From positions 248,001 to 312,000 of the forward strand of contig ML213506.1 of NCBI GenBank assembly GCA_004369045.1: DNA of 64,000 nucleotides, in the 5' to 3' direction. Position 1 is the first letter of the stretch, and the number at the start of each line of letters is the position of its first letter. Shown here piece after piece: positions 28,508-61,643 of this stretch. Under the pieces are notes generated by a model. That model searched no databases. It worked only from the letters and a program-made list of their open reading frames with translations, and was not told the origin of the DNA. The position numbers were made by a program, and so were the translations under genes. This stretch comes from Heliocybe sulcata (taxonomy: Eukaryota > Basidiomycota > Agaricomycetes > Gloeophyllales > Gloeophyllaceae).

Positions 28508-29082
28508 TCAAGCAACGCTCTTCTTCGCGTTGACGAACTGAGTGGCCAGGGTCTTAAAATCGGACATTTCAGCATCATGAACTCTGCGGGTTGAAGGATC
28601 ACACTCACCGCGCTCTCGCTCGAGGAAAGCTTAGCCTTGATGGCGGGCCACTGCTGGCTCTCCTCCTCGTCAGAGTGAGCAATGAAGGTCGTGACGGCCT
28701 TGGTGACGACGGCTTCGTTAGAGGAGGCGGCGGCAGCGTCGGCGACCATCTTGTTGATCTCAGCGTGCTCCTCTGTAAATTAGTGTAAGCCATCATACGG
28801 CGTGCTCGATATCGCAAAGCACTCACGCTTGTTGGAGGCGGCGCTCAAGCCGAACTTGGAGTAGTCAGCGTAGATGGATGCATCCCTAATACCAAGCGTC
28901 ACAACACTGCTCTCAGTCAGTTGTAGAGAAAGCACTCACTCAGCAGCGCTGTGCGCCTTGATCTCAGCGATCAGGGTCTTGGCGAGGGTGACCTTCTCGG
29001 TGCCGGTGGCAGCCTTGTACTTGCCGAACAGGCTCTTGACGTTGTCGTGGTCAGACTTGATGGTGGCGAGGACGTCAGACAT
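28508..29082 (-). CDS. HHE hemerythrin-like protein, copy H1 (subfamily A)
   Basis: Small four-helix metal-binding protein of the hemerythrin HHE family; such folds hold a di-iron site that can bind or sense oxygen, iron or NO. The role in fungi is not settled. Exons 29082-28940, 28885-28827, 28772-28609, 28552-28508 (143, 59, 164, 45 nt) give 136 residues. The ligand pattern is H12, H44xxxE48, H70, H100xxxE104, seen in SDHDNVK, AHSAAED, EEHAEINK and AHSDEEESQQW. There is no signal peptide, so it is probably cytosolic. Subfamily A marks are TGTEKVTLAKTL and DAAAASSNEA; this copy has Ser in place of Ala at residue 10. A TATAAAA box lies at 29155-29161 on the coding strand, and the conserved leader block precedes the ATG. 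Intact. Confidence 0.9.
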
Positions 29083-30219
29083 TGTGATGAGTGTTCTTCC
29101 TTGAGCTCGAGTGAGTGGTTGGAGGATAGGGAATCTCACAAAATACGGGATGCGTTTTATACCTCGCGTCCATGGCTACAGCCTATCTCCTGGACGTTGT
29201 TTCCTGTCGCGGTTAGAGCATAAGGATGTGTATCGTGACCTGAACACCGAGTAGACTCAGCGGGCACAGTAGGCCTTCCCGTCCTTGTTGATGGTGGCAT
29301 TACTCCAAATGGATTCTCGATGGCTCGTCGCTGGCGAAACGGGGTGCGCACCATTGGAGGACGCCATATGACGCTCATCTGCCTCCGATCTCGTCAAGAT
29401 CGAGAATGGTGGCCATTCCGCTTCCACCAATCCCGTTGACCCCGTTGTGCGACTTCCTGTAGCTTCGACTGCGGAGGCTTCTGGATGCAGATCAAAGACT
29501 TCCAGTCTACCAGGCACCACTTGGTAGCGACAGTTATTCTTGGTTATTGACGACGAAAGTTCTTAGACGAGCACGCCATACCATGACCATAGCGCAGAGA
29601 CCAGAGGAAAGCCACTTGTCAAAACCTCTATCCTTGACCTCAGAGCAATTGGGCCTAGATATCCCGCGACATACTGAAGCAAACTGTCCTGTAGCTGACC
29701 CAGTTGAACGTGGCATGACGTGATAAAGAGGAAGAGAGACCCATCGAGGAGCACAGCATTTAGGACTACCTCCGAGGCTTGTGACCTACTGATGCGGATC
29801 TGATACGGTCGGATACCTGCTGTCATGGCTGGGATATCGTTGGATCCAAGTACGAAGCATACACAAGCACCGTATTAAGGATATGCGCGCTCGAGCAGCG
29901 CAGTCTCTCCATATGGACAGGAAGGCCGTCAGAGCCAGAAGCTGTCGAGCGTTGGCAGCAGCATGAAAGGCACCGTCTCTGAGTGAACCTTGTCAGCGGA
30001 CAATCTGGAAAGCTCGAGGCGGCCAGGTGTGTGCTAAAGGTATACCAGCCGCCATTAGAGTATAATAGCTCAAAGTTAAGATAGGCACGGAGAGCGGAGA
30101 GCCTGATCTCGGAAGTCCATGGCTGAATATGTTGCCTCAGGAAGACGTGGTAGTCCGGTGCAAAGTACTTGTTATAACGCTAAACCTGAGGATGTAACGG
30201 CAAAAAAGACAGAGAAGGC
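29083..30219. other. H1 promoter and gene-free stretch
   Basis: The first about 80 bp hold the H1 leader and TATA box. Beyond that, open frames are short and overlapping, with nothing recognised up to the transposon. Confidence 0.5.
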
Positions 30220-30228
30220 GGCCAGCAG

Positions 30229-30418
30229 CAGGCTCCTAAAACCAGCCGTCGAGCGTTCTCGTTCCACTCTGAGGGCATGTGGGAAGAACATATGTATTAG
30301 GAATATCTGACATATACCAAATATACTCACTTACCATAAATAGAAGTCAGCTAAGAGGAAGAGAACGCTCTGTGACGGCTGGCCAAAGTGGTAGCCGGAG
30401 ATCACCGAGGGTGACGCG
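30229..30418 (+). repeat. Left 190-bp terminal inverted repeat of the MULE
   Basis: Reverse complement of 37856-38045, no mismatch seen. The match ends abruptly at both outer and inner edges. Confidence 0.92.
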
Positions 30419-30685
30419 AAAACTCAGAAAAGTCAAGAGAAGTCATTTGATGTCCCATCTATCGATATTTGCCAGTATTTACTTCTTGTCCTAGAATGGA
30501 TTACCTCGGTAGCAAGTCACACTTACGTCACAAATGTTCTGCGCGAGTACGCTAAGCCTAAATACAAGTATGTGCAGTCGATGCACCGTTCTGTCGAGCC
30601 TGCCGCTGCATGTTCTACACGTTGTAATAGACCTTGAAAATATCAACATGGCCTGGAGATGTTCCAAACCTCCTCGATGGGCCTC

Positions 30686-30984
30686 TGTTGAGCGGTATGT
30701 GGCGGTTGTGGCGTCGAGCCGCGTTAGACGGAAGTATTTCCTTTCTTCTCAGTATTGATGTCGAGTCCCTATTGGCTAGTCGGCGTTAGCCGTAGTTAGT
30801 AGGTAAAATGCGTCGAACGCACGCGTCGCTCCTCAGCCTGTTACACCATTCCCGGCTGAGGAGTAAGTCATGTTTCCTAGTTGCTAGAGATTACAGTTAG
30901 CTGATGTATAGTGTAGACCTGTTTCACAGGTATAGTATAATAAGAGCCTGTTACACCATTCCCGGCTGAGGAACCTGTTTCACA
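30686..30984 (+). repeat. 5' LTR of the copia element
   Basis: 299 bp, TGTTG...CACA. It includes an internal doubled segment around TTACACCATTCCCGGCTGAG. Same as the 3' LTR by eye. Confidence 0.93.
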
Positions 30985-33900
30985 GGTTATGAGCCCAACG
31001 GCGCAGTAACAAGGTTCAAATTCGATACCCAAAAGCGCTGGTGCGCATATAACTCTCGGTGTTTATTTATCAGGCAGCGCGTTGAAGCGTGAACGCCTCG
31101 GACGTCTTTGCAAGACAAGTTCGGTATATATTTGAAGTTTCACTACGGCGACGCGCAAACGAGCTCGAAATGGGAGGCGATAAACACCTGTGGTTCGCTA
31201 TGCGCGAGTCAGAGGTGCTGAAGTCGGACGGGAAGAACTGGCTAGAATGGAAGGGTAAAATCAAGGCGGCGGTGCGAGCTAAAGGTCTGCGCGGCCATCT
31301 CACCGGAGAAACGAGGCGACCCGGCGTGGTACGGGACGGCAGCGAGGACGAACGCAGCGACTACCAAGAAGCTTCGAATGTCCTACCCCCGAGAACATCA
31401 TCCCCTACGCTCGCCAGCAATACGTTGGCCGCCGAGGCAGCGCTCGCTAAATGGGAACAAGATGACGAATACGTGAAGACCTCGATCACGATGAACATGG
31501 GAGATACAGTCACCTTGGGACTCGACGAGACGGACGACCGTACCGCTTTCGAGGTCTGGAACGTTCTACTCAACAAATACGAGCGTCAAACGCCTGAAGC
31601 CGCCATCAATGCCCGCCGCTACTTGGAGACTCGGAAGTTCAAGGAGGGCACGAGCCTTGAAGCACACTTCGATGAGCTGCGTCGACTCCGAAAGGAAGCA
31701 AACAACTTGGGCGCGAACATTCAAAACCCCGAGTTCCTCATCATCATGTGCGAATCTTTACCCTCTTCGATGGAGAATATCACCAATCCCGTACGCATGG
31801 CCAACCGCGATCCGGACGATGCGATTCAAGCGATAACTTCGCTGTATCTCAGTAAGCTGATGAAGAGCGGCAAACCCGTCGTGACGAGCGACAGCGGCCT
31901 GACCACAGCAGCTTTTGTCGCGCATACACCGAGCCAAGCGCCGAGGACCACACTGGTGTGCAACTGGTGCGGGTGGGGAAGGCACTCCAGGCAGAATTGT
32001 TACTGTCCTGGAGGAGGGAAGGACGGGCAGCAGCCCTCGACGTGGACTACAAAGCCCAAGCCCAAGCGTGGATCGCCCGCCGACAAGTTCATGCAGGATA
32101 ACAACTTGTACGAACGTTCGACCACCAACGCTCCTCCTCCCCGAGGACCTCAGACTACTCATCCCACTGCATTTCCGCAAGCAAGTATGGCGACGTACGA
32201 CTACAACATATTCATGGCCAGCATTGATCCCGGAGATTTCGATGAGGGCAACGCCGCAACTGCAGTATCGGTCGTGACGGCAGCGTCGACACCTACTTTC
32301 ATCGACTCCGGCGCGACTCACCATTACTTCACACGACGGGAATCCTTCGTTGACTACGTCGAGATCGTGCCTCAGACAGGCCGAGGTGCGAAGAAGGGCA
32401 TGAATTTCACCGTCGTTGGTGGTGGGACAGTCTTGATGAAGGTCACGGTTAACGGGCAGGAGACCGCGTTAGTATTCCGGGACGCCGTACATGCTCCCGA
32501 CCTTCGAGCAAACCTCATCTCCGTGCCGAAGATGGATCTGGCAGGCTACGAGGTGTCGATGCGAAACGGAACAGCTAGAGTTCTTACTCAGGAGCAAGAC
32601 CCAAGGCTTTTATTCTTCGGAATGCTAGAGGTCAACCTGGGCAGTTGCTTGTACCGAATGGAAGTGGACTCATATATTACCGAGCTACCGAACCACATCC
32701 CGCGCCTCGAGATCACCTTCGACCCACGAGCGCTGGTCGCTTTCCATACTGACGGGACTGACCTGGCTACCTGGCATCGCCGTTTCGGTCACCTCGGCGA
32801 AACCGCATTGCGTCGAATGGTAAAGTCCGGGGTCGTACGCGGGCTCCAGATCAGTGGCGACAACTTGGTCGGAAAGTGCGAAGACTGCTTACAGGGCAAG
32901 CATGCGCGGGCACCCTTTAGGGATTCGGAGCGAGAACCCCATCCGAATCACCGGGCGTACATCGACTTGCTAGGCCCACTGCGGGTTCCATCAGTTGGAG
33001 GCGCACGGTATGTCATGACGATCGATGATGGTGCGACGTCGTACCTGCACCTGTATACGCTGGAAACCAAGAACGCGGACGAAACCTTGCGATGCCTGGA
33101 ACACTACCACAGACTGTCGGAACGCCAGACTGGGAATCGCTTACTCCGAATTCGCACCGATAACGGCACCGAGTTCAAGAACGCCTTATGGAGCACTTAC
33201 ATCGAGAAGCATGGCATAATCCACGAATTTACCAGTCCATACACCCCCCAGCAGAACGGCGTTGGCGAACGTGGACATCGCACACTCGCAGAGCGCGTGC
33301 GCTGCATGCTGTTCGAATCGGGTTTACCCAGTAACCTGTGGGCGGAAGCATTCCACACCGCTGCGTACCTCAAGAATCTTTCGCCTTCAGCGCGACAAGG
33401 TGGGCGAACACCGTACGAGCGATGGAATGGTCAAGCACCTAACGTTAGCCACCTACGCCCATTCGGCTGTGTTGCGTGGGTGAAGGTTCCTGACGAGATG
33501 CGCACTCGACTCGACCCAAAATCCATCAAGTGTCACCTGATAGGATATTCAGACGGCGCAAATTACAGGCTCTGGCACGTACCCGAAGATGGTGTGGGCC
33601 ACGTTATTCGGTCGCGAGACGCCATCTTCGAAGAAGGGGTTGGGCATCGCACCATGTCGGTCGAGGGGGGGGACGAGAACGTCGGAGTGGGTTTTCGTGA
33701 CGAGGATGAAGACCCGATCGACTCGCCATGGAGCGCTGATGACAAGACACAGCCCGAACCGATGCCAGTGCTGGTGTCGACTGAGGAGAACCATGAACCG
33801 ATACCAGCGCCAGTGGCACCAACTGTCGATCCTAGGACCTCGTCGCGGGTGCGGAACCCCAATCGTGCTATGATCGAATCGCTGGAGTCTCAGCAACGCG

Positions 33901-35269
33901 AGGACGAAGCTCGCATGGCTAGAGAACCGTGGGCTGACGATGATCGCACTCCAAGCAGTGACCATGTGAGAACCGTAGACGACGCCCACGCGTTATTTGC
34001 GGCTTTCGTGGCTTATATCGCTGAGGCAGACGAAGATAAGGAGTACATTTTCGTCGACACAGAATGTGCTACGCCAAACACGTACCAGCAGGCTGCCTCG
34101 CGTTCCGACATCTGGACTCCGGTGATGGCGAAGGAGATCGCGGGTCTGGAGAAAATTGGCACTTGGACCCTTGTGCCTCGGACCAACGACATGAACGTCG
34201 TAGGTTCGAAATGGGTGTACGCGCGCAAGTTTAATGAGGGCGGAAAATGGAAGCCGAATGCACGCCTTGTCGCAAAAGGCTTCACGCAAATTCCTGGGGT
34301 CGACTACTTCGAAACGTATGCGTCGGTCGCAAGCTTTATCTCGTTACGGACAGCTGTTGCTATTGCGGCGTATTACGACATGGAGATGGGTCAAGACGAC
34401 GTCGAGAAGGCTTACCTCAACGCGACACCCGACGAAATGATCTTCATGGAACAGCCGAAGGGTTTCGAGTCGAAACAGTTTCCCGAACACGTCCTCAAGT
34501 TAAACCGCGCGCTCTACGGACTCATGCAATCAGGCAATGCCTGGTGGAACGAGTTGAACAACACTTACAAAGAGCTAGGTTTCGAGTCCGTGCAAGCGGA
34601 TGAATGTGTTCGAGTTCGATGGGATCCAGACACTGGCATGACCATGACGGCGACCTACACTGACGATATCACTACCGCGTCGGACACAGTGGAGGGTCTT
34701 CAGGAAGCACGGAAGGATCTGGCGAGCCGGTACCGTCTCAGTGCAGGGGGGGAATTAAAGTGGATCTTAGGGATTCAAATCGAGCGCAATCGGGATGAAC
34801 AGCTGTTGCGATTGAACCAGCGTCAGTATGCCGAACGAGTTCTGAAGCGGTTCAACATGCTGGAAGCCCATCCGGTGCTGACACCGATGGAACCGGGACT
34901 GCGACTATCGCGCGAGGCGACGCCGACGACGCCTGCGGAAGAGGCCGAGATGAAATCGATTCCATACGGCGAATGCTTGGGGGCTATCATGTACCTCACG
35001 TACGCTACTCGGCCGGACTTGGCGCACGCTGTCGGTGTTCTCAGCAGGTTCATGTCGAACCCGGGTGTTGCGCACTGGCGAGCCCTGAAGCGAGTCCTAC
35101 GGTACATCAAAGGCACTCTTGACTACGGTATAACTTACTATGGTCAGAAACACGCTAAGTCATCGATTCAACCCACCTTGTACTCGGATGCGTCTCACGC
35201 CGATTGCCCGGACACTGCTCGTTCCACTCATGGCCATGTCACTATACTCGCCGGCGGACCCGTTGAAAG

Positions 35270-36790
35270 GCACTAACACGCGACGAAACCCGCACAGACC
35301 TAAAGGGGAACAACAACCACAAAGCGTAGCACCAATCCCTTGGTGCTAGATGGCTGCGAGGTCCGGGGCGACGAAGGGTATAATAAACGTTCGGAGGGAT
35401 AGGGTAGGGTAAGACGTATAGGTGGGGCTAAAGGTTGATTGGCGCAGACCAGTCGCGGTCGTGCGGCAGTCTCAATTCAATACGCACACTTCGGGAGACA
35501 CTTGTATCGTACTCCGCTTGACGATGCGATTCTAACGCACTCGGTGCGCTCTTGGTGCGATAACTTCTCGGGCTGTCGCGGAGCGCGCGCTTGTCGCACG
35601 GTCTCGGAGGGAGCGGGATCGGGATCGCCTACACAATGCGATCGAGGCACGCGTACAATGCCGTCGGTGCGAAGTGCGACGCTTCTAAAACTCGAGACAA
35701 ACTCGAACGCGGTTAACGAGACGGGCGGCGCACGAGGCCGGACTTAAGAGAAAACTTGGAAACGAAAGGGCTCACTTGTCGCGCGCGCTGTCGGAAGGGT
35801 CGCGCAAACTCTGGTTGAAGTCGGAAGACCGTCGAAAGCCTTATACTCTGGAGGAAACTCTTGCGCCGAGAACGAGATACGAAGGGTGAAGATAACTTGC
35901 ATTTTCGAGACAAAGAGAAAGGGTATAAGTACAAACGTAGCCGCTACACTACTCGCAGTCGCACATGAGGAGAAAACCGTCTCCCGCAAACCATCTCCTG
36001 CGTCGCGCGCTCGTCCACAAGGCGCGCACTGCCCCAACCGCCCTGTACCTAACTTTCCTACCAATCCCATCGTTTCCGCGCGGCGCGGTGCCTGCATGAG
36101 TACGCTCGTAGCCTAGCTTGAAACGCGCGACGAGTCTTGTCCTCGCGCCACGCCGTACGAGACCTTGCGTCGACGCGGCTGTGCCACAGTAACTTGAGTG
36201 GCGGGCGTAGTTGCCGAAGAGCAGCGCGGCTGTGCCGAAAGGGGTAGTGGGTCGGGCGAGTGATGCGTCGCGCGGAGGGAGCCAAAACCGATGATGGAGG
36301 CGGTGAGTTGATGCGTACGGGCGCCCTGAGCATGCGACCCGACGGGCGGCGAAGGCGATGATGGGAACGACAGGCGGGACATTGAGTGGGATGGTCGATC
36401 TAGAATGACTCGATGGCCTAGACTCCTCGGGACCGACCGGACTGTGTTGTGCCGAGTTGCCGTTGACTCGATCGGAAAGATCTGGAGGCCGAGGCTTACG
36501 CGTCGTTGTGGCTGAGTCCAAGAATAGTCTCCGAGACAAGAATAGATCGGTTTGTATTGAGTCCCGCTGAATAGAGTGAGTGTCGCCGCGCTGCGGGGAA
36601 TAGAGTCGCGAGCTCGCCGCCAGAGTGAATAGTCGGGGTCGCCAGTATAGTCGTCGCTCGCCTTCCAAGGAGCTGTCAGCGGCGAGCGAACGTGCAATAG
36701 AGTCGCAACGTCGCCGCGATCACGAAACGACCCTGAAAACGCGTTTTCGGAGCGCAGAACCCTGATCGGCCGTATCACCGTATCCTGGAG
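35270..36790. mobile_element. Unidentified insert of about 1.5 kb inside the copia element
   Basis: Copia-type sequence stops near 35.27 kb and resumes near 36.79 kb. The block between is GC-rich, has no copia similarity, no obvious terminal inverted repeats and no clear target duplication. Its minus strand has a 239-codon Arg/Ser-rich frame of no known family, probably a composition effect. Edges are approximate. It must have arrived after, or moved with, the copia element. Confidence 0.55.
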
Positions 36791-37160
36791 TTCGAAGCGC
36801 CAAGAGGTCGTAGCATTGTCCACTACGGAATCGGAATACATCGCCACGGTACATGCAGGCCAGATGGCGTTCTGGTACATAAAATTCCTACGCGACCTGA
36901 TGCACCCACCCATCCTTCCCATCGTCATCTACTCGGACAGCTCGGGCGGGGAGAGCTTGGCCAAACGCATGTCGAACTTCAATCGCGTACGGCACCTTCG
37001 CGTACGCTATCACTGGCTCCGGGACGCGATCAAAGACAAGGAGTTGGCGGTGGAGCACGTACCAGGGCAGGATAATCCGGCGGACATCTTCACCAAGCCG
37101 TTGACCGCGCCGATTTTGCAGAAACATATTGGAGTGCTGGGGCTTGACACCAAGGGGGGG

Positions 37161-37459
37161 TGTTGAGCGGTATGTGGCGGTTGTGGCGTCGAGCCGCGTT
37201 AGACGGAAGTATTTCCTTTCTTCTCAGTATTGATGTCGAGTCCCTATTGGCTAGTCGGCGTTAGCCGTAGTTAGTAGGTAAAATGCGTCGAACGCACGCG
37301 TCGCTCCTCAGCCTGTTACACCATTCCCGGCTGAGGAGTAAGTCATGTTTCCTAGTTGCTAGAGATTACAGTTAGCTGATGTATAGTGTAGACCTGTTTC
37401 ACAGGTATAGTATAATAAGAGCCTGTTACACCATTCCCGGCTGAGGAACCTGTTTCACA
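37161..37459 (+). repeat. 3' LTR of the copia element
   Basis: 299 bp, follows a G-rich polypurine tract and is followed by the GCCTC target duplication. Confidence 0.93.
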
Positions 37460-37460
37460 G

Positions 37461-37872
37461 CCTCGCAATTGACCAGCTGCAGTCGGTACTGAATTATCTT
37501 CGTGACTGCGGCGCAACCGTCGACAATTTCTTCATGGTGCCGCTTGAGTACGGTAGCCTCAGCAACAGTTATGGAGCGGCTAATACTATGCAGATCAGCA
37601 ACGTATTATTGAATGTGTTGGTCACTTACCCGAACACTCGGCAGGAGCTCTTCACTGGGAACATAGCAAATATTATGAAGTCGGACTATCCACAGGAGAT
37701 ACAAAAACTTACTGACATCAAGACTGGCCTAGGTTTCAAAACCAGTGCTGCTACGAGTGGGCAAATAGATGCATTGAAAGGTCACTCAGCACGACGTTTC
37801 GGGGATGGTGGCAAACAGGAGCAAATAGCATATAAACGAGGCTGTTTAGAGGTTCCGCGTCACCCTCGGTGA
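37461..37872 (+). pseudogene. Coding-like fragment inside the MULE, possibly captured
   Basis: The frame reads AIDQLQSVLNYLRDCGATVD followed by NFFMVPLEYGS and continues to a stop inside the right inverted repeat. Its composition is coding-like, but I cannot name the family. Upstream sequence left of the copia element (30419-30685) belongs to the same MULE interior. A fragment of a host gene carried between MULE ends would make this a Pack-MULE-like element; it could equally be a remnant of the element's own gene. Confidence 0.4.
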
Positions 37873-38045
37873 TCTCCGGCTACCACTTTGGCCAGCCGTC
37901 ACAGAGCGTTCTCTTCCTCTTAGCTGACTTCTATTTATGGTAAGTGAGTATATTTGGTATATGTCAGATATTCCTAATACATATGTTCTTCCCACATGCC
38001 CTCAGAGTGGAACGAGAACGCTCGACGGCTGGTTTTAGGAGCCTG
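37856..38045 (-). repeat. Right 190-bp terminal inverted repeat of the MULE
   Basis: Partner of 30229-30418. The adjoining GGCCAGCAG at 38046-38054 repeats the bases just before the left repeat. Confidence 0.92.
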
Positions 38046-38448
38046 GGCCAGCAGTAGTTACACTTGTCGGTTGGGCATACATCGGTCCAGGATCGGAAAG
38101 CAACGTGGTCGTTAAACTCACTGGCCATGGCCATGTGAAGTCACGTGAACGGACGCGGCAACATGGCACGATTGTGCCACAATAGACCTCATAAGCCACA
38201 CACGATTCTGGGAGTCGGTGTAGGAGTTTCACTTGTACAGGAGTTTATTTGGGGCTCTCGGCCTTAAATTCAAGTGATATTGCGTCGAGTCGTCGGTTCC
38301 AGCACAATTGCACCCTCATGCATCATGACTAACATCGATTCGTTACCGTTGAGCTCCGATTCGCCCCAGGGTATGCATAAGAATCATGACCCCAATTTGC
38401 ATTTCTTATTGTACAGGATATAATACAACAGAAGATGCAACCCTACGT

Positions 38449-39018
38449 TCATGCAGCACTCTTCTTGGCGTTCACGAATTGGGCAGCAAGGCTCTACGCG
38501 TAGCGTACGTGTGAGAAGCAGGCCTAAGCAAACGAGGACAAAGCTTACCGAGCTCTCGCTAGCAGACAGCTTGGCCATGATGGCCGGCCATTGCTGGCTC
38601 TCCTCCTCATCGGAGTGAGCGATGAAAGTCGTGACGGCCTTGGTGACGACGGCCTCGTTCGAGGAAGCAGCAGCAGCGTCGGCGACCATCTTGTTGATCT
38701 CGGCATGCTCCTCTGAAGTGGTGTTAGCATCTTACCGGCCTGTGGGTATCTATCAGACTTACGCTTGTTGGACGACGCGCTCAGACCGAACTTGGAGTAG
38801 TCGGCGTAGATGGAGGCATCCCTATGAGATCCAAGTTACCGCTGTACCATATACCTGTTATAGCAAGGTACTTACTCAGCCGCACTGTGCGCCTTGATCT
38901 CAGCAATGAGGGTCTTCGCGAGGGTGACCTTCTCGGTGCCAGTGGCAGCCTTGTACTTGCCGAACAAGCTCTTGACATTGTCGTGGTCAGCCTTGATTGT
39001 AGCGAGGACGTCCGACAT
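38449..39018 (-). CDS. HHE hemerythrin-like protein, copy H2 (subfamily A)
   Basis: Exons 39018-38876, 38821-38763, 38712-38549, 38493-38449: the same 143/59/164/45 lengths and intron phases (2, 1, 0) as the other copies, 136 residues. Ligands H12, H44/E48, H70 and H100/E104 are present. Subfamily A sequence (TGTEKVTLAKTL, DAAAASSNEA); the C-terminus is AAQFVNAKKSAA as in H3. Residue differences from H1 are few; lysine 113 is replaced (WPAIMAKLSAS). The leader ends CACTCAAGCAACATG. The TATA-like box is GATAAAA at about 39091-39097, weaker than in H1, H6 and H7. The gene lies 395 bp from the right target duplication of the MULE. Intact. Confidence 0.88.
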
Positions 39019-40499
39019 GTTGCTTGAGTGTCTTCCTTAAGCTCGAGTGAGTATCTGGAGGATGGAGAATTGTAGAGGAGATGCCTGCTCTTTTATCTCT
39101 TGACGCTCTGCTTGCGCGTATCGTCCGGATGTTATTGGTGTTCGGAGCCAAAGCATCGTGACCTCGTCGCTGAGTAGAGCATCGGAGACTGTTGCTGGAC
39201 CCGCCTTTGCAGATGTGCCTGAACAGGACGGCCCACGACTGCCTGTAAAAGAAGGCGAGAAAACACAAGGCTTGCGATTGGAGGACTGGGCATAACACCT
39301 GTCCAGTCGATACTCGGTACGATCGAGACACGCACATCTCGCCCTTTAGCCCCACTTCAGCCAATCTCCTGTTCTTAGTTATGCGACCTCGGTTAGCTTC
39401 GAATGTAGACCGTTATTAAGCACGTGGGTCACGAATCCAAGCCAGATTTGTGATGTTCGTTCCGATAGGAGCCAACCTTTGCTGGTTTGTGCGCTATTGC
39501 ACCGCGGAAGTGCCAAGCAACACGTGACCTCTTTGCCATGGTCGAAGAGAGAAGGTCTTGTAGTACGACAAGAAGGTGGGACCCTCATACTTGAAAAGAG
39601 AGACAAGAGTATGACCCGGTTCTGGTAGACTCAAAAACAGGCCGTTCGTAGGCCCACGAGGGATCCTCCACGCATTTGGAGACGTGCTTATTGCGACAAG
39701 ATACTAGCTTGCATTCGGCCGCGTGACTGACAAAGATCGGAAGCATAGGCGATGGCGGAGATAACACCCTCAACGCACCATCCCTGATGGAGGGGAACAA
39801 CGACAGGAGATCAGAAATAGCTAAGCAGTCGCGCTGGTTGGTACCATCACAGCTCCCGTTCCTGAGTAAAGTCTGTTGAGCGTCATTTGGCCAAACTTGC
39901 TCGGAAACAGCTTATACGCCAAGAGTGCGCACTAGATGCACCCAAAAAGCTGGTACGTTTCCTATCAGGCAAGGGATCGAGGCCAAGTAGTCGCATTCCC
40001 GGTTGTTCGAAGACAGATCTCGAGTTCCGTGACAAGCCGTCATCCCAGTAGTAAGTACGCGAAAAGAAGCCGGGATCAGGTCAGTTTAATGTCTACCGAC
40101 ACCACTAGAAAATTGCTGTAGAGATTGCCTGGGTTTGAGGGTAGGGACGTATATCGTCGCAAGGTGAATGTGATGAAGGAAGCACTTAAGGAATTCAGGG
40201 AAAGTACACCGGCAGTTGCCGACGACAACCGCGCGTTACTCTTGACTCCGCTCGTGCAATCTCCTCTGCGCCTTCGGTACTAACATGGCTTGATGATGAC
40301 AACAGTGGATGGCTCTCTCTCGGATGCATCTTGCATTTCCTTGTCGCGAGTGCGTCGCAAATCAGCGACATGTGGAATTTGAAACCATCTTCCCCGAGTC
40401 CGCCGAGCGACCCCCACTGCAATAAACATAGAGTCGACGACAGGTTGGGTGTCTCTGGACGGATAAAGAACTGTGTCTCTCCTTGGGATCATCTGTGTC
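39019..40499. other. H2 promoter and gene-free stretch
   Basis: Leader and TATA-like box of H2 in the first 80 bp. No credible gene in the remainder, which ends in the promoter of the P450 gene. Confidence 0.5.
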
Positions 40500-42995: not shown

Positions 42996-43565
42996 TCATG
43001 CAGCGCTCTTCTTTGCGTTCACGAACTGAGCAGCGAGGCTCTGAGGTACGGCATAGGTGAGAAAGAGGGCTGGTGCAAAGGCGCTTGGAACTTACGGAGC
43101 TCTCGCTAGACGACAGCTTGGCCTTGATGGCGGGCCATTGCTGGCTCTCTTCCTCATCGGAGTGAGCGATGAAGGTGGTGACGGCCTTGGTGACGACGGC
43201 CTCGTTGGAGGACGCAGCAGCAGCGTCGGCGACCATCTTGTTGATCTCGGCATGCTCCTCTGAAGCGGTGTAAGCGTCCTACCAACCTATGGGTATCTAT
43301 CAGACTTACGCTTGTTGGACGACGCGCTCAGACCGAACTTGGAGTAGTCAGAGTAGATGGACGCATCCCTATGGGTCTCGAGTCAGCGGTGCAGGCATAG
43401 ACTGTTCCTCGAGAGAACCCACTCGGCCGCGCTGTGCGCCTTGATCTCAGCAATGAGGGTCTTCGCGAGGGTGACCTTCTCGGTGCCAGTGGCAGCCTTG
43501 TACTTGCCGAACAAGCTCTTGACGTTGTCGTGGTCAGCCTTGATGGTAGCGAGGACGTCCGACAT
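42996..43565 (-). CDS. HHE hemerythrin-like protein, copy H3 (subfamily A)
   Basis: Exons 43565-43423, 43368-43310, 43259-43096, 43040-42996 (143/59/164/45), 136 residues. All six expected ligands are present. The donor after exon 1 is GTGGGT, weaker than the GTGAGT or GTAAGY of the other copies. Exon 2 has Ser for Ala in IYSDYSKFG. The C-terminus is AAQFVNAKKSAA, shared with H2, so H2 and H3 are probably the closest pair. The box CATAAAAA lies at about 43638-43645, and the leader CACTCATCACAATG matches H1. It is tail-to-tail with the P450 gene (136 bp between stops). Intact. Confidence 0.88.
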
Positions 43566-44864
43566 TGTGATGAGTGTTCTTCCTTAAGCTCGAGTGAGGG
43601 TTTGGAGGATGGGGAATTCGAGACGAAGTGCGTCGCGTTTTTATGCTTTGAGCGGCTTGCAGGAGCCTACTTGCCGGGGAGGGTTGGCTCTTCAGCGTTA
43701 GCACTCGCCGCAGGGACATGTGGACGCTCATGTGTGGTCTGGCTTCGGTGCTGAGCGCTGAGTAGACGCAGCTCGGACACTGTTGTCGCCTCCCGCCCTT
43801 CCAATCCATTGCGGTGCATGCAAGCTGGCGACATTAATATTGTATCCAGAAACTCGACGCCAGTGATTGGTCGTGGCGATATGACGTTTCCCTGCGGTAG
43901 ATCCGCTCGAGATGAAGAAGCACCTTCGCAATTATTGCCTTTGTCCGGACCAATGCGCGTGGGACGATTTTGTGACTTCGAGCAGCAAAAGCCTCCGTAC
44001 TTCTAGATCCATGGCTTGATGGTGCGGAATGAATGGAACTAGGCACCATCCCGTCTCCTCGAAGAACCCTGTTTGATTCTTGAAGCTTCCGCCATGTACC
44101 CTGCTGTAGTTAACTGGGGCGATCTGGCACATCATCCGACTCCTGACACAAGCAGAAAGGGGAACCCTAGCGGTGTCGCGCATGCAGCGCATTGACCAGA
44201 CGGACTGCGGCGTGCGCGATGTCTTCATAATGTCAGCGCTGGTGAAATATACACCTCGGGTATCCCATAGCATTCCTTTATCTGGAGTTTATCTGATATC
44301 CAAATTATCGGTAAAATTGCGAAATCCCGACAGTAGCGGCACCGACTTGCGGAATTGCTTGAGAATTGGGCGTTGTACAGCCGAACTTGCATTGCGCACT
44401 AGCGACCTGGCGGGTATGCATATGCAGGTCTGGATATTAGCCCAAGACAACTTGCAGTCTTGAAGACGCGCTGAGCGACCCAAGAGTAATTGTGAAAGCA
44501 AGGTTTGGACCAAGTTTGAACTACAAATCCTCGGAGGAACACGAAAAGAAATCGGCGTTGTCCGGAGCTGGGTGACACGGTAGACGCGTGACGTCACGTG
44601 CTCGTGCCGGGCGCATCCTTCGCAAACTACACGACGCGGCTACCTCAGTACTAAAGTGACGGTTCTATCTCTCTGGTACTTGTCACCCGCTCAAGTGTTT
44701 CGCTTGAATATGCAATGGATGCAGCACTTGAACACGCCGACAGAGATCCTCGAGGTATGCTGAGAAAATCCGTGCATGCTTCATTGGGCACACATCATAC
44801 AGAAGAATCGTACAGCTCCAATGTAGCTTTCCTCCGATTCTCATCTGCCACTGTGATCAAGAAC
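43566..44864. other. H3 promoter and gene-free stretch
   Basis: Leader and TATA-like box of H3, then about 1.2 kb with only short open frames and no motif. Confidence 0.5.
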
Positions 44865-45439
44865 TTAGGCGACACTCTTCTTCGCATTCATGAACTGGGA
44901 CGCCATTGACTGCAAACATAGTCAGGATTCGATGAAGACACAATATTGTCATGAGGATACGCACGGCGCTCTCGCTGGAGGACAGCTTAGCCTTGATGGC
45001 GGGCCACTGCTGGCTCTCCTCTTCGTCGGAGTGAGCGATGAAGGTGGTGACAGCCTTGGTGACGACGGCCTCGTTGGAGCACGCAGCGGAAGCGTCGGCG
45101 ATCATCTTGTTGATCTCGGCGTGCTCCTCTGTAGCGAGCCGGGTTAGTATATATCAATATCAGGTGTACGTGGTAGAAACTGACGCTTGTTGGAGGCAGC
45201 GCTCAAGCCGAACTTGGAGTAGTCAGCGTAGATGGAGGCGTCCCTGTCATATGCAGGTCAGTATGACCTCTCGTTTATGCCGAAGAAAATGCTTACTCCG
45301 CAGCGCTGTGTGCCTTCATCTCGGTGATGAGGGTCATAGCGAGGGTCGTCTTCTCCGAGCCAGACGCGGCCTTGTACTTGCCGAACAGGCTCTTGACGTT
45401 GTCATGGTCAGCCTTGATGGTAGCGAGGACGTCCGACAT
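44865..45439 (-). CDS. HHE hemerythrin-like protein, copy H4 (subfamily B)
   Basis: Exons 45439-45297, 45243-45185, 45128-44965, 44909-44865 (143/59/164/45), 136 residues with all expected ligands (ADHDNVK, AHSAAED, EEHAEINK, AHSDEEESQQW). Subfamily B marks: SGSEKTTLAMTLITEMK in helix 1-2 and MIADASAACSNEA in helix 3. Last exon SMASQFMNAKKSVA, stop TAA. Third donor GTGCGT is a weak form. TATAAA on the coding strand at about 45514-45519. The leader is slightly altered (CTCTCACTCACAATG). Intact. Confidence 0.88.
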
Positions 45440-46895
45440 TGTGAGTGAGAGATGCTTCCTTGGCTCGAGTGAGTGTTGGGAGGATGAGGGTTCTAAGGGC
45501 TGGCGTGGTGCTCTTTATACCTCTCAAGTAACCTCTCTCAATCGTGTTGGCAACTCTGAGTTGGCTATCATAGTGGCATGACCAGTACGCTGCGTATCCT
45601 CTGCACGGACATTATTGCTCAGTTGCACGTCTAGGTCTTCCAACGAGCGGTGGCGTATGCCGCAATTTGGGTTATCGTCGTCGCGGTTCAAAAAACGGTA
45701 CCCGCGATTGGTTGGAACTTATGACGTCCAGTTAATCTTGGACTATTGGATATACGGTAGGATTTCTCTTCTTCCTCCGGACCAGTACGAGGGTACTGAT
45801 TTTGTTCCTTCTCCTAGCTTCGATCTTCTGGGCTTCGGGACCTGATCGGTATGGAATTCATATACGAAATATCTCTGCATAGAGTCTCTTCATATGGCGC
45901 GGAAGATCGTTGACTCGTGTCTTAGACATGGGGACTGCGATAGCTCAAGAGCGACCGAGGTCATATGTTCTTGGAATCTGCGACAGAAACAAGCCGGTGC
46001 TTGTTCTACCTTTGGCAACCAAATGTCTTCCAGTCAAGGTCTTCCCCTCCTTGACAGGCTGCATTTGTATAGAGACTGCTTCCGCACATACGAAGTAAGC
46101 TCCAGCCCTCCAATCGCGAGTCCTCTCAGGCACGCATATACACCGTCAGTCCGATAAGATTGCTATCGATGCATGCGAAGAAAATGCGGTGATACCCATT
46201 GACTCCGTTCCCGCGTGAAGGCTCTGAACCTTGTACAGATATAACCTGCCGCGATCCGTGGATAGATGATCTCTCAGCACATGATCACGGAGAGGCGAAG
46301 GAACTCGGAGTCTTTAGGTCCGTCGTTGGACCTTTCATCATTACTTGCTGATGAGGAGATCCCAGTGCATCCATGGCATCTTGGTTTAGGACAGATTTAT
46401 TTGGTCATTTGGGCGAAGCGTCCACTACTGTGGCACGCTGCCAGTCAAGCAACAAGTATTCGCTGGTATAGAGTCATTCATGAAGGCACAGCCCCGGAGT
46501 GATACAGCATAACCACGAAGTCCATAGTATTCATTGAACAATCCACAGGCCCGCCCCGTCGGGACCGGTACCGCAAACCTCCGCAGGACGGCACGGCTGA
46601 CTCTAATCCGTTCATGCATAGACCGACATGGTTCTCTCCGCTGGATGTGCAACGTACACTGTTCACACGCTGAGATCTCACCGATGAGTCTCCATTTATG
46701 CGAAGATCTCTAGAAGCGGGTCGATATGCACCAAGTCCCAGGATGGCTCCGTGACCGGCAAAGGATCGAAACTTCTTATCAGCTCATTCTAAATGATCGT
46801 GCGCACAATCCATTGCAAGTCATCCTACAACAGGGCTACTACTGGACAGATACCAAACGCCCCCCCCCCCAGAACCCCATACCCGAATAGATCGC
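45440..46895. other. H4 promoter and gene-free stretch, with a C homopolymer
   Basis: No credible gene. A run of about 12 C at 46859-46870 lies about 25 bp from the H5 stop, in its 3' flank. Confidence 0.5.
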
Positions 46896-47476
46896 TTAGG
46901 CAACGCTCTTCTTCGCATTCATGAACTGGCTGGCGAGGGTCTGTAAAAAGACGCATCAGCATTGCGATATGGTGTAGGAGAGATAGAGAAGCACTTACCG
47001 CGCTCTCGCTGGAGGACAGCTTAGCCTTGATGGCGGGCCACTGCTGGCTCTCCTCTTCGTCGGAGTGAGCGATGAAGGTGGTGACGGCCTTGGTGACGAC
47101 GGCCTCGTTGGAGCAGGCAGCGGAAGCGTCGGCGATCATCTTGTTGATCTCGGCGTGGTCCTCTGTAAAAACAAATTGCGTTAGCACCGTAAGAGTGAAT
47201 GTTGAGGACTGTATGACTGACGCTTGTTGGAGGCAGCGCTCAAGCCGAACTTGGAGTAGTCAGCGTAGATGGAGGCATCCCTGCCAGATGCGAGTCAGTA
47301 TGAGCTCTCAATTCGTACGAAGAAAATGCTTACTCCGCAGCGCTGTGGGCCTTCATCTCAGTGATGAGGGTCATAGCGAGCGTGGTCTTCTCAGAGCCAG
47401 ACGCCGCCTTGTACTTGCCGAACAGGCTCTTGACGTTGTCGTGGTCAGCCTTTATGGTAGCGAGGACGTCCGATAT
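46896..47476 (-). pseudogene. HHE hemerythrin-like copy H5 (subfamily B), start codon lost
   Basis: Exons 47476-47334, 47280-47222, 47162-46999, 46940-46896 keep the 143/59/164/45 lengths, the frame and all six metal ligands. The codon at the place of the ATG in the six other copies is ATA (47476-47474): coding strand GCAGCATATCGGACG versus GCAACATGTCGGACG in H2. The next in-frame Met is at residue 35 and would drop His12. An upstream in-frame ATG at 47623 lies beyond the TATA-like box (TATAAG, about 47550-47555), so normal transcripts would not carry it. Third exon begins EDHAEINK, as in H6. Either it is a recently silenced copy, or it starts at ATA or another near-cognate codon. Nothing else is broken. 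Confidence 0.82.
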
Positions 47477-48580
47477 GCTGCTTGAGTGTCTTCCTTGAGC
47501 TCGAGTGAGTGTCTGGAGGATGGGGGTTTGGATACCTAAGGCGCCCCTTCTTATACTGAAGCGTTGCTTTCTTGCGCCTACTTCCCGGATACAAGGTGCC
47601 TTCATCCATGCTCTGAATACCAACTGGACCGTGACATGGACTCTGAGTAGTCTCGATTCAGGTGCTATGCGACTGGGGCCTCGGTGCCGGCGATGGTCCT
47701 CGAGGAATGGCCCAGCTACGATTGGATGAGATATGCCACCCCACTATCCCAGTTTCGGAAAAGGTGTTCTGCGCATGCCAGAATACTGCCGGGGTTAATG
47801 TTATAGTTCCCGTTCTCTACCATCGACGATGGTCACGAATATAGCAGCGGAGAGATCGGTGTACAGCGATTGTGCTATCTTGAAAGAAGTCTCAGCTTGG
47901 AATTAATGCTCTTTCAAACCATATCCTCACCATTCCAATCTGCCTATCACCTATCGAGATTATGGCCACCGCAGCTATCATGAAATGCAGGGCGGAGGCC
48001 GTGGAATATCAACGCTGGATAGATTATGGAGCTGAATGTCAGCCACGAAACAAGGACCGAATGAGATAACAGAAAACACTTCCTAACTCACTGTGAAATA
48101 CTCGTTCTACTTGCGCTCCATAGCTGTCTGCTTCCGAGTCCGCGTGACCTGATATATCCAAATGAATCAGCTTGGATAATTTTACTGCGATCGTGAGCTC
48201 GGATGCTGTGGATATGGCAGTCCATGTTGGCCATCTCATACGGCCGCCTATGGACAGCATGCAAGTGACGGAAGAAGTTAGTGAGATACCTGCAACAAAG
48301 TGGCGAAGAAGACAAACAGTCATGTTCCACATTGCCACCGAGGGTCCTGCCTAGACTTTGTCCAAGCATAGAATCGGAGCTATCGTTAAAGATATGACGT
48401 CCAGCCACTCGCTCCAACTGAGGTTTGAAGGAAAGCTTTGTACGGCGGTAGCAGTGATCGCTCGACAAGGGTTCTTCGAATCCCGTATATGCATTTGCTG
48501 GTAGTACAACATTGGATAGCGGTAGATAACAAGGAAGATAGACGGACGAAGAAAACCAAAATAATCCCTGATACAGCAGT
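47477..48580. other. H5 promoter and gene-free stretch
   Basis: H5 leader and TATA-like box, then about 1 kb without recognisable genes up to the 3' end of MCM2. Confidence 0.5.
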
Positions 48581-51830: not shown

Positions 51831-52004
51831 AGTTACGATTGAAGGCTGTCGCTCGAGTAGAGATGGTGAGGTCTGTAAAGTCGAGCGACGCGACGCGTCT
51901 GACACGCTAATTTAGGCGGACTTTGAAAGCGCGTCTCTCATGTCTCACGCCACTACGGCAACGTCTCGTCTTTGTGATCATATTCATCCGCTCTATCATT
52001 TGGG

Positions 52005-53046: not shown

Positions 53047-53139
53047 CAGTGTCCGTGCTGAATCTTGCTCAGCGATCAGGCCATGACCCTAGGATAGCCA
53101 ACTCAGAGGCGTCAGCACTGTCCACCTGAAGACCAAAGG

Positions 53140-53217
53140 TATAAAGAGGGCTGGACATCCCTCGAAATCCCCATCCTCCAGACACTCACCCGAGCTCAAG
53201 GAAGACACTCAAGCAAC
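53140..53217 (+). promoter_or_regulatory. H6 core promoter and leader, representative of all seven copies
   Basis: TATAAA, then about 30 bp, then a block of the form ATCCTCCA-n-ACTCACYCGAGCTYAAGGAAGACACTCA, then the ATG. The same layout, with the box 78-80 bp before the ATG, is seen in H1 (29155-29161), H2 (39091-39097, GATAAAA), H3 (43638-43645, CATAAAAA), H4 (45514-45519), H5 (47550-47555, TATAAG) and H7 (60993-60999). The block lies in the likely 5' untranslated leader. Tight conservation outside coding sequence suggests shared strong expression or a leader function. Confidence 0.7.
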
Positions 53218-53791
53218 ATGTCGGACGTCCTCGCTACCATCAAGGCTGACCATGACAACGTCAAGAGCCTGTTCGGCAAGTACAAGGCCGCGTCTGGCTC
53301 GGAGAAGACCACGCTCGCTATGACCCTCATCACCGAGATGAAGGCCCACAGCGCTGCTGAGTGAGTTCTCATCAACGCCCGCCAACACGCTCATACTGAC
53401 CTTTACCTTCAGGGACGCCTCCATCTACGCTGACTACTCCAAGTTCGGCTTGAGCGCTGCCTCCAACAAGCGTCAGTCTACCACATATATCTGATCTTGT
53501 TATATACTAACCCGGTTCGTTACAGAGGACCACGCCGAGATCAACAAGATGATCGCCGACGCTTCCGCTGCATGCTCCAACGAGGCCGTTGTCACCAAGG
53601 CTGTTACCACCTTCATTGCCCACTCCGACGAGGAGGAGAGCCAGCAGTGGCCCGCCATCAAGGCCAAGCTGTCCTCCAGCGAGAGCGCCGTAAGTCCTGA
53701 CCCACTCCGTAGCCAGCGGTCTGATTCTTAACACGCCTTTCTCCAGAGCCTTGCCTCTCAGTTCGTCAACGCCAAGAAGAGCGTTGCCTGA
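53218..53791 (+). CDS. HHE hemerythrin-like protein, copy H6 (subfamily B)
   Basis: Exons 53218-53360, 53413-53471, 53526-53689, 53747-53791 (143/59/164/45), 136 residues with all six ligands. Subfamily B (SGSEKTTLAMTLITEMK; MIADASAACSNEA) with EDHAEINK in helix 3 as in H5, although it lies on the other strand and on the far side of MCM2. The C-terminus is ASQFVNAKKSVA. TATAAA at 53140-53145, and leader CACTCAAGCAACATG as in H2. The stretch CCTCCAGACACTCACCCGAGCTCAAGG matches the other leaders closely. Intact. Confidence 0.9.
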
Positions 53792-56887: not shown

Positions 56888-57623
56888 ATGTGAGTTCGTT
56901 ATCGTTCGAGTGGTGGGTAGCGCTTATGATTGTGGATTGTAGGGGCGGTGATTCGTAATTGACCGATAGAAGTTGTGTTGTGATATGCGTCCTTGCGTAT
57001 GCGAAAATAATGGTGCGCAACCTGGGATCGCCAGTTTCAGTGGATCGAACCCTTCGGGAAAATATCTGATTTTCTTGAGACTCGGCGTTGCAAGGGGATT
57101 ACGACTCTTGCACCGTTGGCGCGGGTTTTACGCTGTTCCTCATCCGTGGAAACGGCTGTACCGCCACTGTGCGCTTACTCTGACAGGCTCCCCATCAGAC
57201 ATTAACGTACAGGAACATGCATGCGTCACGGTGCTCGATCTACTCCGCGAACCCATAGGACGGAATGACAGAAGAAATGCGTTCCATTCCATGCTGTCTC
57301 TCCCTTCAAGGACTGAGGGAAGGTCGGGGATACAACGGAGCCGAAGATCAGTACCAATACAATCAGTGCGGAAGGCGAGCTAATCTTTCTCAATCTCGGG
57401 CAAGACGGTTCCCGCTTTCTTGGGCAGCCAAGTACTGCTCACAGATGATATGAAGGCGATAAAATCTGAGGTGACGCCGGCGCTCGTAGGGCACAGTGCC
57501 CCGGTGCTGAGACGGGTGCCTCATTCTCATCTCAGCTAGGATACGCTTCTGTTTAGGGGCTCCTTGGCGGCGTCAGGCTCACGAAATACCAACGTGGAAG
57601 AACCGGCCAGACTTCAAGATAAC
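56888..57623. other. No supportable gene
   Basis: Intergenic; promoter side of the next P450 gene at its right end. Confidence 0.55.
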
Positions 57624-59801
57624 ATGGACACCCTCGCGGTATTCTTGGCCATAGTACGTTGCCTACTGCTTGCATTCATACAACTTTGCACTAATACATA
57701 TTCCAGGTCACTTGCGGCACCTTGCGCAAACGAACTGTGAGAGGAGATACGTCCCTTCTCGCCTTAGCTATTCTGTTCGCATTAACCGCGGCCAACCAGC
57801 GAATTTATGGAGTCGACAGGAACCTGTGGTCTGCTGTATTGGACGCCACCCTCTTCCTTAGTTTCTACCTAGTTACGATTGTTGTCATAACTGTCGTCTA
57901 TCGGCTCTCTCCCTTGCATCCACTCTCCCGTTTTCCTGGACCACTACTCTACAAAGTAACGGGCCTCAAGCTCGCGCATACGGCATCCACAGGAAAGAGG
58001 CACCTTATCATCGCCGACCTACACAAGAAATATGGGATATTTGTGAGAACAGGTACGAGACCATTCCAAGAGAAAACATCTGAAGTGATGACACTTTACT
58101 TAAAGGTCCCAATATATTATCCATCAACTCCCGAACGGCGGTTCATTGTATCTACACTACGGCGCAATGCATGGACAAAAGTGACGCTTACAGGATGGGA
58201 CGCCTCGATGCAGGTGGTCTGTTTTTCCTGAGAGATTTGAGGAAGCATAATGAGCGCAGGAGAATCTGGTCTAGAGCATTCACAAGTGCAGCGTGCGGAA
58301 AATCCATGCAGTCTTTCCTTGGCCCTGCGTCCACGCTGATTCTCATGACGAACAGGTTGGATTCAGCCTCGAGGATTCTGGACCGACGTACTCGGGAGCT
58401 GGTCTCATGCATACGGAGAAGGCAAAATAATGGCGTCGTCGATTTGGGAAGGTGTATACAACACTGGTCCTACGATGTAATGGTACGTGAGACCTCTTTA
58501 AGTTTCCACTTGGTGGTAGATTATTGATGGTCGGTGTAGGGGGACCTTACTTTCGGAGGTTCAAATAGAATGGTAAGAGTCGCTCGCCAAGTATCGTCTC
58601 TGTTACCATACTCACCAGCACAATGTCTCGATGCAGGAACTCATGCAGGACGACGACAAAGCCAAGCTCGTGGAAGGCGGTCAGAAGGCGTCTGCGCTGT
58701 TCGACATGTGAAGTCCATTGTTTCCACCATACGATATCGATCTCATCTGTACCTTGCCGCAGACTCGGGAACGTCCCACCACTATTCGACATACTTTCAT
58801 ACCTGCAGTTTCTTGGGGACCTTGACTCGTTACAGATACTATCCAGCAGGTTATTAGATACGAGAAAAAGGGTCCGTCCTCAGGATGCGAGTCCAGACAT
58901 CTGTTCTCACCTGGTAATCATTCTCCACCCACTGGCCCAATCTGCTAATCAGCTCCGTCTCCTGATGGATCTCAGCTCTTTGAGGATAGCTCCTCGCAAG
59001 CGGACCAACTGAATATCCGCCAACTCAACCAGGATACCCTCTTCGCTATTCAGGCAGGTATTGCCTTCAGTCTCATCCCGATTCATTGGTCCTGACCACA
59101 TTTCCTCGAGGCTCTGATACCACCTCTGGCGTGTTGACGTTCACCCTATTTTATATCATATCAGACAACAAAGTCTACGGACGTCTTTCTCAAGAGCTCA
59201 AAGGATGTTTCCCTACTGGGGAGATCACATTCAGCGATCACAGCAGACTACTCCAGCTACCATATCTATCCGCGGTGGTGACGGAAGGCCTTCGTCTTGG
59301 CTCACCATTCCGCGCTTTTCCCAGAGTGGTGCCGGGTGGCGGAACGATAATCGACAATACTTTCGTTGCGGGTGGTACCATAGTCGGTGTACCAGTCTGG
59401 GCTCAGCACATCTCTTCGGAGAATTTCTGGCCAAAACCCGAGCAGTTCATACCTGAACGATGGCTTGATGGAGGGTTAGGACCTGGTTCAATTGCGAGGA
59501 AGAGTGCAATTATGTCATTCTCATCCGGTGAGCTGAGGGTCCATGTAAATCATACAGAAGCTATATGTCACGCCGGGATTGTGCAGGGCCCTTTGGTTGC
59601 CTCGGCAAGGCTCTGGCATTGAAAGAAGTGCACGTAGCCGTTGCTCAACTTCTACTGTCTTTTGACCTGCAATTCAGCGCGGGTTTCGATCACAGAAAGT
59701 TTCAGGAAGGAATTCAGAATACGCTGTCCTCGACGTTCGCTCATCCATTGACCGTCAATGCCACTCTCTGCGATGCGGCTATTTCTGCTCTTTCTACATA
59801 A
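57624..59801 (+). CDS. Cytochrome P450 with long multi-helix N-terminus
   Basis: ER-bound heme monooxygenase, intact. Exons: 57624-57653, 57707-58052, 58106-58482, 58540-58572, 58637-58707, 58763-58913, 58976-59057, 59111-59527, 59587-59801; 1722 nt, 573 residues. The N-terminus has two or three hydrophobic helices (SLLALAILFALTAANQ; ATLFLSFYLVTIVVITVVY) before the proline hinge HPLSRFPGPLLYKVTG. Then come a GPNILSIN segment, W.R.AF as RRRIWSRAFTS, the I-helix AGSDTTSGVLTF, ExxR as TEGLRL, PERW and heme loop FSSGPFGCLGKALALKEV, which is split by the last intron. The polytopic N-terminus resembles certain basidiomycete P450 clans; I do not assign a CYP number. It is oriented like the acyl-CoA oxidase-like gene just upstream (737 bp apart). 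Confidence 0.9.
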
Positions 59802-61071
59802 GACTTTAATCCCACGCATTTCAGCACTCTGCCCTCTCCTATGCTGTCTGCTAAGAATCGGGATAAAACCACCGTGTGTGGCTCACGGCGTGTGACGATC
59901 ACGTGCTGTCACGCATTACCCAGCCGGAATCCTGCAGCGTAGCCGGTGAATCTGCGGCGTCGGCTATGCAACCTTTGAAGTACTCTGGTGTGCTAGCTCC
60001 TTGGGGTGAACTCGTGGTGCATTCCTAGTCTTCACCGCATCCGCCGACTCCGCCTGGCTATCTTTGGTGCGGCCGATCATCGAATAAGTAATCCTGTCCG
60101 GATACGTGGAGGTTTGATTGCAGAGCTAAGAAAACGATGCTATCTGGAAGGTGCTGCGCTGATATCTTACTTGTTAGGCTCTGAGGTCCATCTGACCTGC
60201 TCTCAATCGCAAATTGTAATGCCACCGCATCACAAGGTATACTCAGAGACGGAATCTTTGCCTCGAGAGTTGTCGATTTTCTTAGCCCTACTGGCGATTC
60301 TGCTTTTGCGCAATGACCAGGTAGCAGGATGACAGAGAACAGTTCTAGGATAACTGCCTTCTGTGCTAATACAGGATGCCGCACACGGTCCCCCAGATTT
60401 GCAATAATTGCTACCTTAATGAAGTAAGTCGCGTAACGGATTTGAGACACTGATACGACACTGAACAGTCGTACCTATGTGGGGAGGCTCAATGGCCTTG
60501 GACATTTATATTTTGCGAGGGAATGCGCGGCCATCTGTGACCACTGCCCAATTGAAGGATTATGCATGTGGTAATCCAACGGTGCGCTCGTTCAGACGTT
60601 CAAACGTTCATGCCTGGTAGATCAGCGGTCGGCGGCGGTTTTGAAGATAGCACGGCTCTCGGAACCGCCTCGGCCCATGAAAAGAAGCACCTACATAGCA
60701 GAGCGAAGCAAACAAGTCGTCCGGGATTGGGTCGGACAAGATAACTTTTGCTTCTCGACCTGTACCATATTTGGATCCGTCTAACATCATACCATACAGT
60801 CCAATCACGAGTGGCGCGTTTCTGCTGGGCTATCAGTCAATGACTTGTAGAGCCATACGGAACAATCTTCAAGGGCACAAAGTAACAGTGTCCGCTGTTC
60901 TACTCAGCGGCGAGGTCACGATGCTCTTCACAATGCGATAGCGCAATGCAGGTAATAATGTCCGGGAGGACGCTCTAGCCAGAGGCTAGAGATATAAAAG
61001 CAGGTGCGTTCACGCTTGAAAACTCATCCTCCACATACTCACTCGAGCTTAAGGAAGACACTCATCTCACA
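59802..61071. other. Gene-free stretch and H7 promoter
   Basis: No gene recognised. TATAAAA of H7 at 60993-60999 and its leader block (CCTCCACATACTCACTCGAG) just before the ATG at 61072. Confidence 0.5.
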
Positions 61072-61643
61072 ATGTCGGACGTCCTCGCTACCATCAAGGC
61101 TGACCACGACAACGTCAAGAGCCTGTTCGGCAAGTACAAGGCCGCGACTGGCACGGAGAAGGTCACCCTCGCCAAGACACTGATCGCTGAGATCAAGGCC
61201 CACAGTGCTGCTGAGTGAGTACTGACCGAAACCAGCGAGGGACGCACATTGACATGCGATTACCAGGGACGCCTCCATCTACGCCGACTACTCCAAGTTC
61301 GGTCTGAACGCTGCGTCCAACAAGCGTGAGCACTGACCTCCTGAAACAAACGGTTCTGGTGGCTTACGTGTTCTGCTGTAGAGGAGCATGCCCAGATCAA
61401 CAAGATGGTCGCCGACGCTGCTTCCGCTTCATCCGATGACGCTGTCGTCACCAAGGCCGTCACTACCTTCATCGCTCACTCCGACGAGGAGGAGAGCCAG
61501 CAGTGGCCCGCCATCAAGGCCAAGCTGTCCTCGAGCGAGAGCGCTGTCAGTAATTTCTATCTTGATGATCTCTCACCTGGTTCTGACAGTCTCTCCAGTC
61601 CCTCGCTACCCAGTTCATGAGCGCGAAGAAGAGCGTTGCCTGA
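61072..61643 (+). CDS. HHE hemerythrin-like protein, copy H7 (subfamily A)
   Basis: Exons 61072-61214, 61267-61325, 61382-61545, 61599-61643 (143/59/164/45), 136 residues, all six ligands. Exon 1 is subfamily A (TGTEKVTLAKTLIAEIK), but later exons are the most divergent of the array: SKFGLNAASNK, EEHAQINKMVADAASASSDD, and the end ATQFMSAKKSVA. TATAAAA at 60993-60999; leader CACTCATCTCACAATG close to H1 and H3. The third donor GTCAGT is atypical. It is the last copy at the right edge of the array. Intact. Confidence 0.9.

Follow-up and report, generated by a model that had tools for sequence, protein, structure and literature searches.

The 33-kb span 28508-61643 of the window (the whole 64,000-nucleotide stretch of Heliocybe sulcata DNA analyzed here) is probably a dispersed gene cluster, made up of seven paralogues from the fungal single-domain hemerythrin-like (HHE) family, and six of these appear functional. 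The family itself is already known, and the additions made here are the local copy number, a constrained 5' leader and the codon bias. Gene models from the window gave seven copies, H1-H5 on the minus strand and H6 and H7 on the plus strand:

28508-29082, minus strand: H1 HHE gene (exons 29082-28940, 28885-28827, 28772-28609, 28552-28508)
38449-39018, minus strand: H2 HHE gene (exons 39018-38876, 38821-38763, 38712-38549, 38493-38449)
42996-43565, minus strand: H3 HHE gene (exons 43565-43423, 43368-43310, 43259-43096, 43040-42996)
44865-45439, minus strand: H4 HHE gene (exons 45439-45297, 45243-45185, 45128-44965, 44909-44865)
46896-47476, minus strand: H5 HHE gene, otherwise open, whose first codon is ATA instead of ATG (exons 47476-47334, 47280-47222, 47162-46999, 46940-46896)
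53218-53791, plus strand: H6 HHE gene (exons 53218-53360, 53413-53471, 53526-53689, 53747-53791)
61072-61643, plus strand: H7 HHE gene (exons 61072-61214, 61267-61325, 61382-61545, 61599-61643)

Exon lengths were 143/59/164/45 nt in all seven copies, giving a spliced CDS of 411 nt and a product of 136 residues, and every intron was GT-AG and 50-59 nt long. These direct gene models agreed with the earlier note, which had described seven copies on both strands with the same exon lengths and the ligands H12/H44xxxE48/H70/H100xxxE104. Comparison of the window with itself revealed DNA identity of ~79-89% among the copies over 523-643 columns, far beyond chance; the equal exon lengths reflect common descent and do not represent seven independent observations. 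No eighth copy was detected in the window by tblastn, and since the window stops 2.4 kb past H7, further copies may lie rightward. The copies do lie where the earlier note had put them, but its term "array" is a loose one, because neighbouring HHE copies are 1.9-9.9 kb apart, with unrelated genes and a Copia element between them. The following neighbours were located:

48.1-50.9 kb, minus strand: MCM helicase, between H5 and H6
~55.8-56.2 kb: acyl-CoA oxidase-like (ACOX-like) stretch, a weak match, between H6 and H7
~59.1-59.6 kb: P450, between H6 and H7

No iron-uptake, ferritin-like or NO-related neighbour was present among the stretches searched, so the context gives no functional clue. Between H1 and H2, nested transposons occupy 30229-38045, a Copia element lying inside a TIR element. 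The Copia LTRs (30686-30984 and 37161-37459) are 100% identical, begin and end with TG..CA and are flanked by a 5-bp target duplication, GCCTC; their identity indicates a very recent insertion. The enclosing element is Mutator-like: its inverted repeats of ~197 nt share 99% identity, and its duplication, GGCCAGCAG, is 9 bp long. Left of the HHE cluster lies a second dispersed family, four Abhydrolase_3/steryl acetyl hydrolase-like genes on both strands (14785-15621, 16998-18095, 21086-22072 and 26665-27765), as well as a tandem repeat with a 66-bp period (24883-25557); the open frame that contains it (~400 aa on the plus strand, ~350 aa on the minus strand) had no Pfam match.

Seven copies are present as claimed before, but not seven intact ones. 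The start of H5 (minus, 47476..46896) reads ATATCGGACGTC, with ATA as the first codon (context AAGCAGC ATA TCG GAC GTC), and the other six copies read ATGTC(T/G)GACGTC; the cluster thus consists of six plainly intact copies and one of doubtful function. In H5 the next in-frame ATGs, at codons 35 and 41, both lie past ligand H12, so that a start at either would remove helix 1 together with this ligand. Because H5 showed a low dN/dS when paired with H4 and H6 (0.05-0.08) and its codon bias equals that of the other copies in strength, the loss of the start looks recent, or looks like a sequencing or allelic variant. Upstream of H5 (47476-47605, minus strand), the frame is open without a stop to an in-frame ATG at -129, which would add a 43-residue, strongly basic extension (pI 12, charge +7.6) resembling a mitochondrial presequence. 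The TATA-like box, at -79, is closer to the gene than this ATG, and the extension frame may therefore be due to chance.

The product (136 aa, ~14.4 kDa, soluble-looking) contains ~108 of 136 residues that are invariant across H1-H7, including H12, H44, E48, H70, H100 and E104, and the order H-HxxxE-H-HxxxE is invariant in 7/7 copies. This order is the InterPro di-iron motif of the HHE domain (IPR012312) (PMC12022348). The HHE identity that had been proposed for these genes was borne out by profile search: the three copies tested matched Pfam Hemerythrin PF01814 with scores of 30.3-31.6 bits (gathering score 25.3), residues 4-106 aligning to profile positions 2-121 of 127, and among the bacterial relatives found by profile searches one matched PF01814 at 63 bits. 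The aligned bacterial relatives retain the six ligands; in them position -4 from H44 is also acidic and the residue preceding H70 is Glu. The best NCBIfam match, to the PA2171 family, scored 20.3 bits where the cut-off is 190, and none of the matches listed was a RIC model. Neither one copy nor the profile found a credible match among PDB sequences, and viral contigs contained no relative of the HHE protein. Structure prediction from a single sequence, run for a bacterial relative in place of the fungal protein, gave an all-helical model of low confidence (pLDDT 68.6) with no significant fold match in PDB. Each intact gene would give nearly one and the same protein, a predicted four-helix bundle with a putative di-iron centre held by H12/H44/E48/H70/H100/E104.

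Conservation among the copies extends upstream of the start codon. A leader (the CATCCTCCA..ACTCACTCGAGCTYAAGGAAGA block in H1) precedes each copy:

29083-29134, minus strand: H1 conserved 5' leader
39019-39070, minus strand: H2 conserved 5' leader
43566-43617, minus strand: H3 conserved 5' leader
45440-45491, minus strand: H4 conserved 5' leader
47477-47528, minus strand: H5 conserved 5' leader
53166-53217, plus strand: H6 conserved 5' leader
61020-61071, plus strand: H7 conserved 5' leader

The conserved leaders of the earlier note were recovered as a stretch of ~50 nt that has been kept, unlike flanks and introns: 21 of 54 columns of the 52-nt leader are invariant in all seven copies, compared with 1-4 in intron cores, 1-5 in upstream blocks and 2 downstream, and introns and flanks are mostly unalignable among copies. 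A TATA-like box lies before every leader (TATAAA/TATAAG in five copies, GATAAAA and CATAAAA in H2 and H3). A structured RNA in the leader was considered and rejected, since the consensus fold was weak (-3.9 kcal/mol) with no compensatory pair and an Rfam search of the window gave no match. Leader similarity groups H2/H5/H6 and H1/H3, and intron similarity is a mosaic, in which intron 1 pairs H4 with H5 and intron 2 pairs H4 with H6. The leader ends are AAGCAAC/AAGCAGC in H2/H5/H6, CATCACA in H1/H3 and CTCACA in H4/H7, a grouping unlike that of the coding sequences. Runs tests were significant for all polymorphic CDS sites (p 0.0013) and for leader plus CDS (p 0.0003), results that uneven rates alone could yield, and not significant on silent codons alone (p 0.44). 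The mosaic patterns are at most suggestive of some gene conversion or exchange between paralogues.

Codon usage pooled over the copies gave an ENC of 30.8 and a GC3 of 0.84 (per copy, ENC 30-42 and GC3 0.79-0.87), compared with an ENC of 47.9-65.3 and a GC3 of 0.49-0.75 in ten neighbouring coding stretches, and the lysine codon in the copies was AAG in 101/101 cases. Bias this extreme would mark high expression, on the indirect basis of a comparison with ten neighbours. Elsewhere in the agaricomycetes, the Coprinopsis cinerea HHE gene CC1G_07511 is second in a mycelium-specific list (752 vs 0; PMC3606632), and a Moniliophthora roreri HHE gene rises 7.7-fold between days 30 and 60 of infection (PMC3948071); both are single table entries for strongly or differentially expressed genes, and they are likened to the present copies by their HHE annotation.

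Pairwise comparison of all copies gave a dS of 0.22-0.78, a dN of 0.010-0.072 and a dN/dS of 0.04-0.16. Selection for dosage, one of the two kinds suggested in the earlier note, draws indirect support from this dN/dS range, the codon bias and the conserved leader, and we infer that the copies were probably kept for dosage of an abundant di-iron protein that would likely act in labile iron and peroxide/NO handling rather than O2 carriage. Strong transcription from a TATA-like core promoter, together with the constrained 5' leader, would yield large amounts of one protein, which may handle labile iron and react with peroxide or NO at its di-iron site, as do RIC/YtfE or the mycobacterial hemerythrin-like protein (HLP). 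Two observations run against dosage: the start of H5 is lost, so not every copy was kept, and the proteins form two sub-clades (H4-H6 vs the rest), which may point to some specialisation.

The other suggested kind, selection for fine variation, is weakly supported, since residue substitutions are mostly conservative and none falls at a ligand. A rival explanation, that the copies are sub- or neofunctionalised isoforms of two protein types (H1/H2/H3/H7 vs H4/H5/H6), stage-specific or tuned near the iron site, appears possible but doubtful. In the CDS tree, H4+H5+H6 and H2+H3 were each supported at 100, with the placement of H1 and H7 weakly defined; the H4-H6 group had support of only 67 on third positions, and its members have nine residues in common (S26, S28, T31, M35, T39, M41, I77, S81 and C84). 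D69 (H5/H6) and Q72 (H7) adjoin ligand H70, and the sequence upstream of the leader is near random level, leaving room for different regulation. However, the ligands are fixed, dN/dS is low both within and between the groups, and the strong codon bias and the leader are common to all copies.

Passive birth and death, in which the region duplicates genes readily and the number of HHE copies is not itself selected, is somewhat less probable still and seems to us unlikely. The four Abhydrolase_3 genes on both strands (14.8-27.8 kb), the nested transposons and the start codon lost in H5 are in line with it; however, extra copies under no selection should decay, whereas six copies are intact at a dS of up to 0.78 with a dN/dS of ~0.1.

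A 2008 survey recorded fungal single-domain hemerythrins in 10 Ascomycota and 3 Basidiomycota (PMC2556348). Like the present proteins, these have an HHE domain in which the second His of helix C is lost and Glu replaces Asp in helix D, although an Asp is reported for helix C where Asn (N74) occurs here (PMC2556348). In most eukaryotes of that survey the count is one or two, with 5 in Naegleria gruberi and 13 in Helobdella robusta (PMC2556348), compared with seven within 33 kb here. RIC/YtfE has the same ligand order, H-HxxxE-H-HxxxE, with ligands H84, H129/E133, H160 and H204/E208; its E125 and E159 lie at the mouth of the iron channel, and Fe-S cluster formation on IscU requires both (PMC8117158). 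Equivalents of these two residues are E40 (-4 of H44) and E/D69 (-1 of H70), so that the six ligands and the channel carboxylates are all found here. The ligand spacings differ, however (x44/x26/x43 in YtfE vs x31/x21/x29), and YtfE is longer, at 220 residues, with a further domain at its N-terminus and vicinal C30/C31 (PMC8117158). This N-terminal RIC domain with its vicinal cysteines is absent here, the first ligand being preceded by 11 residues. The hemerythrin domain of FBXL5 likewise resembles the present protein; it and the domains of BRUTUS/HRZ sit in ubiquitin-ligase proteins, whereas here the domain stands alone. The domains of plant BRUTUS and of HRZ have the same six-ligand di-iron motif as here (PMC12022348). 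The mycobacterial Mka HLP, a hemerythrin-like di-iron protein that is monomeric and stands alone, has NO peroxidase activity (PMC8913304); it is likened to the present protein by this description and belongs to a separate class in which a Tyr serves as ligand.

O2-carrying hemerythrins have HxxxH in helix C and an Asp ligand in helix D; the motifs here are H70AEIN74 (H70AQIN74 in H7) and H100SDEE104, and the O2-carrier ligand scheme is therefore absent. An oxygen carrier or store like invertebrate hemerythrin is hence most improbable: the Pfam family is common to both and the ligand scheme related, but N74 replaces the second His of helix C, which makes oxygen transport unlikely, E104 replaces the Asp of helix D, and the departure of fungal hemerythrins from the O2-binding motif has already been described (PMC2556348). 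The oxygen handling that the earlier note had listed is accordingly disfavoured in the sense of O2 carriage.

In our literature search, whose coverage was partial, we found no paper assigning a function to fungal HHE proteins and no HHE gene cluster in Agaricomycetes, an absence that such coverage leaves unproven. In its most far-reaching and quite speculative form, the dosage reading would make the locus a copy-number device, in which near-identical di-iron proteins, partly homogenised by gene conversion and driven by a common constrained leader, would serve the mycelium as a major cytosolic buffer of iron or of peroxide/NO, and H5 could be moving to a new compartment via its 43-residue presequence-like N-terminus. 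If confirmed, the cluster would point to a major protein of iron or peroxide/NO handling that has gone unrecognised in mushroom-forming fungi, and it would offer a natural copy-number series for testing that protein.
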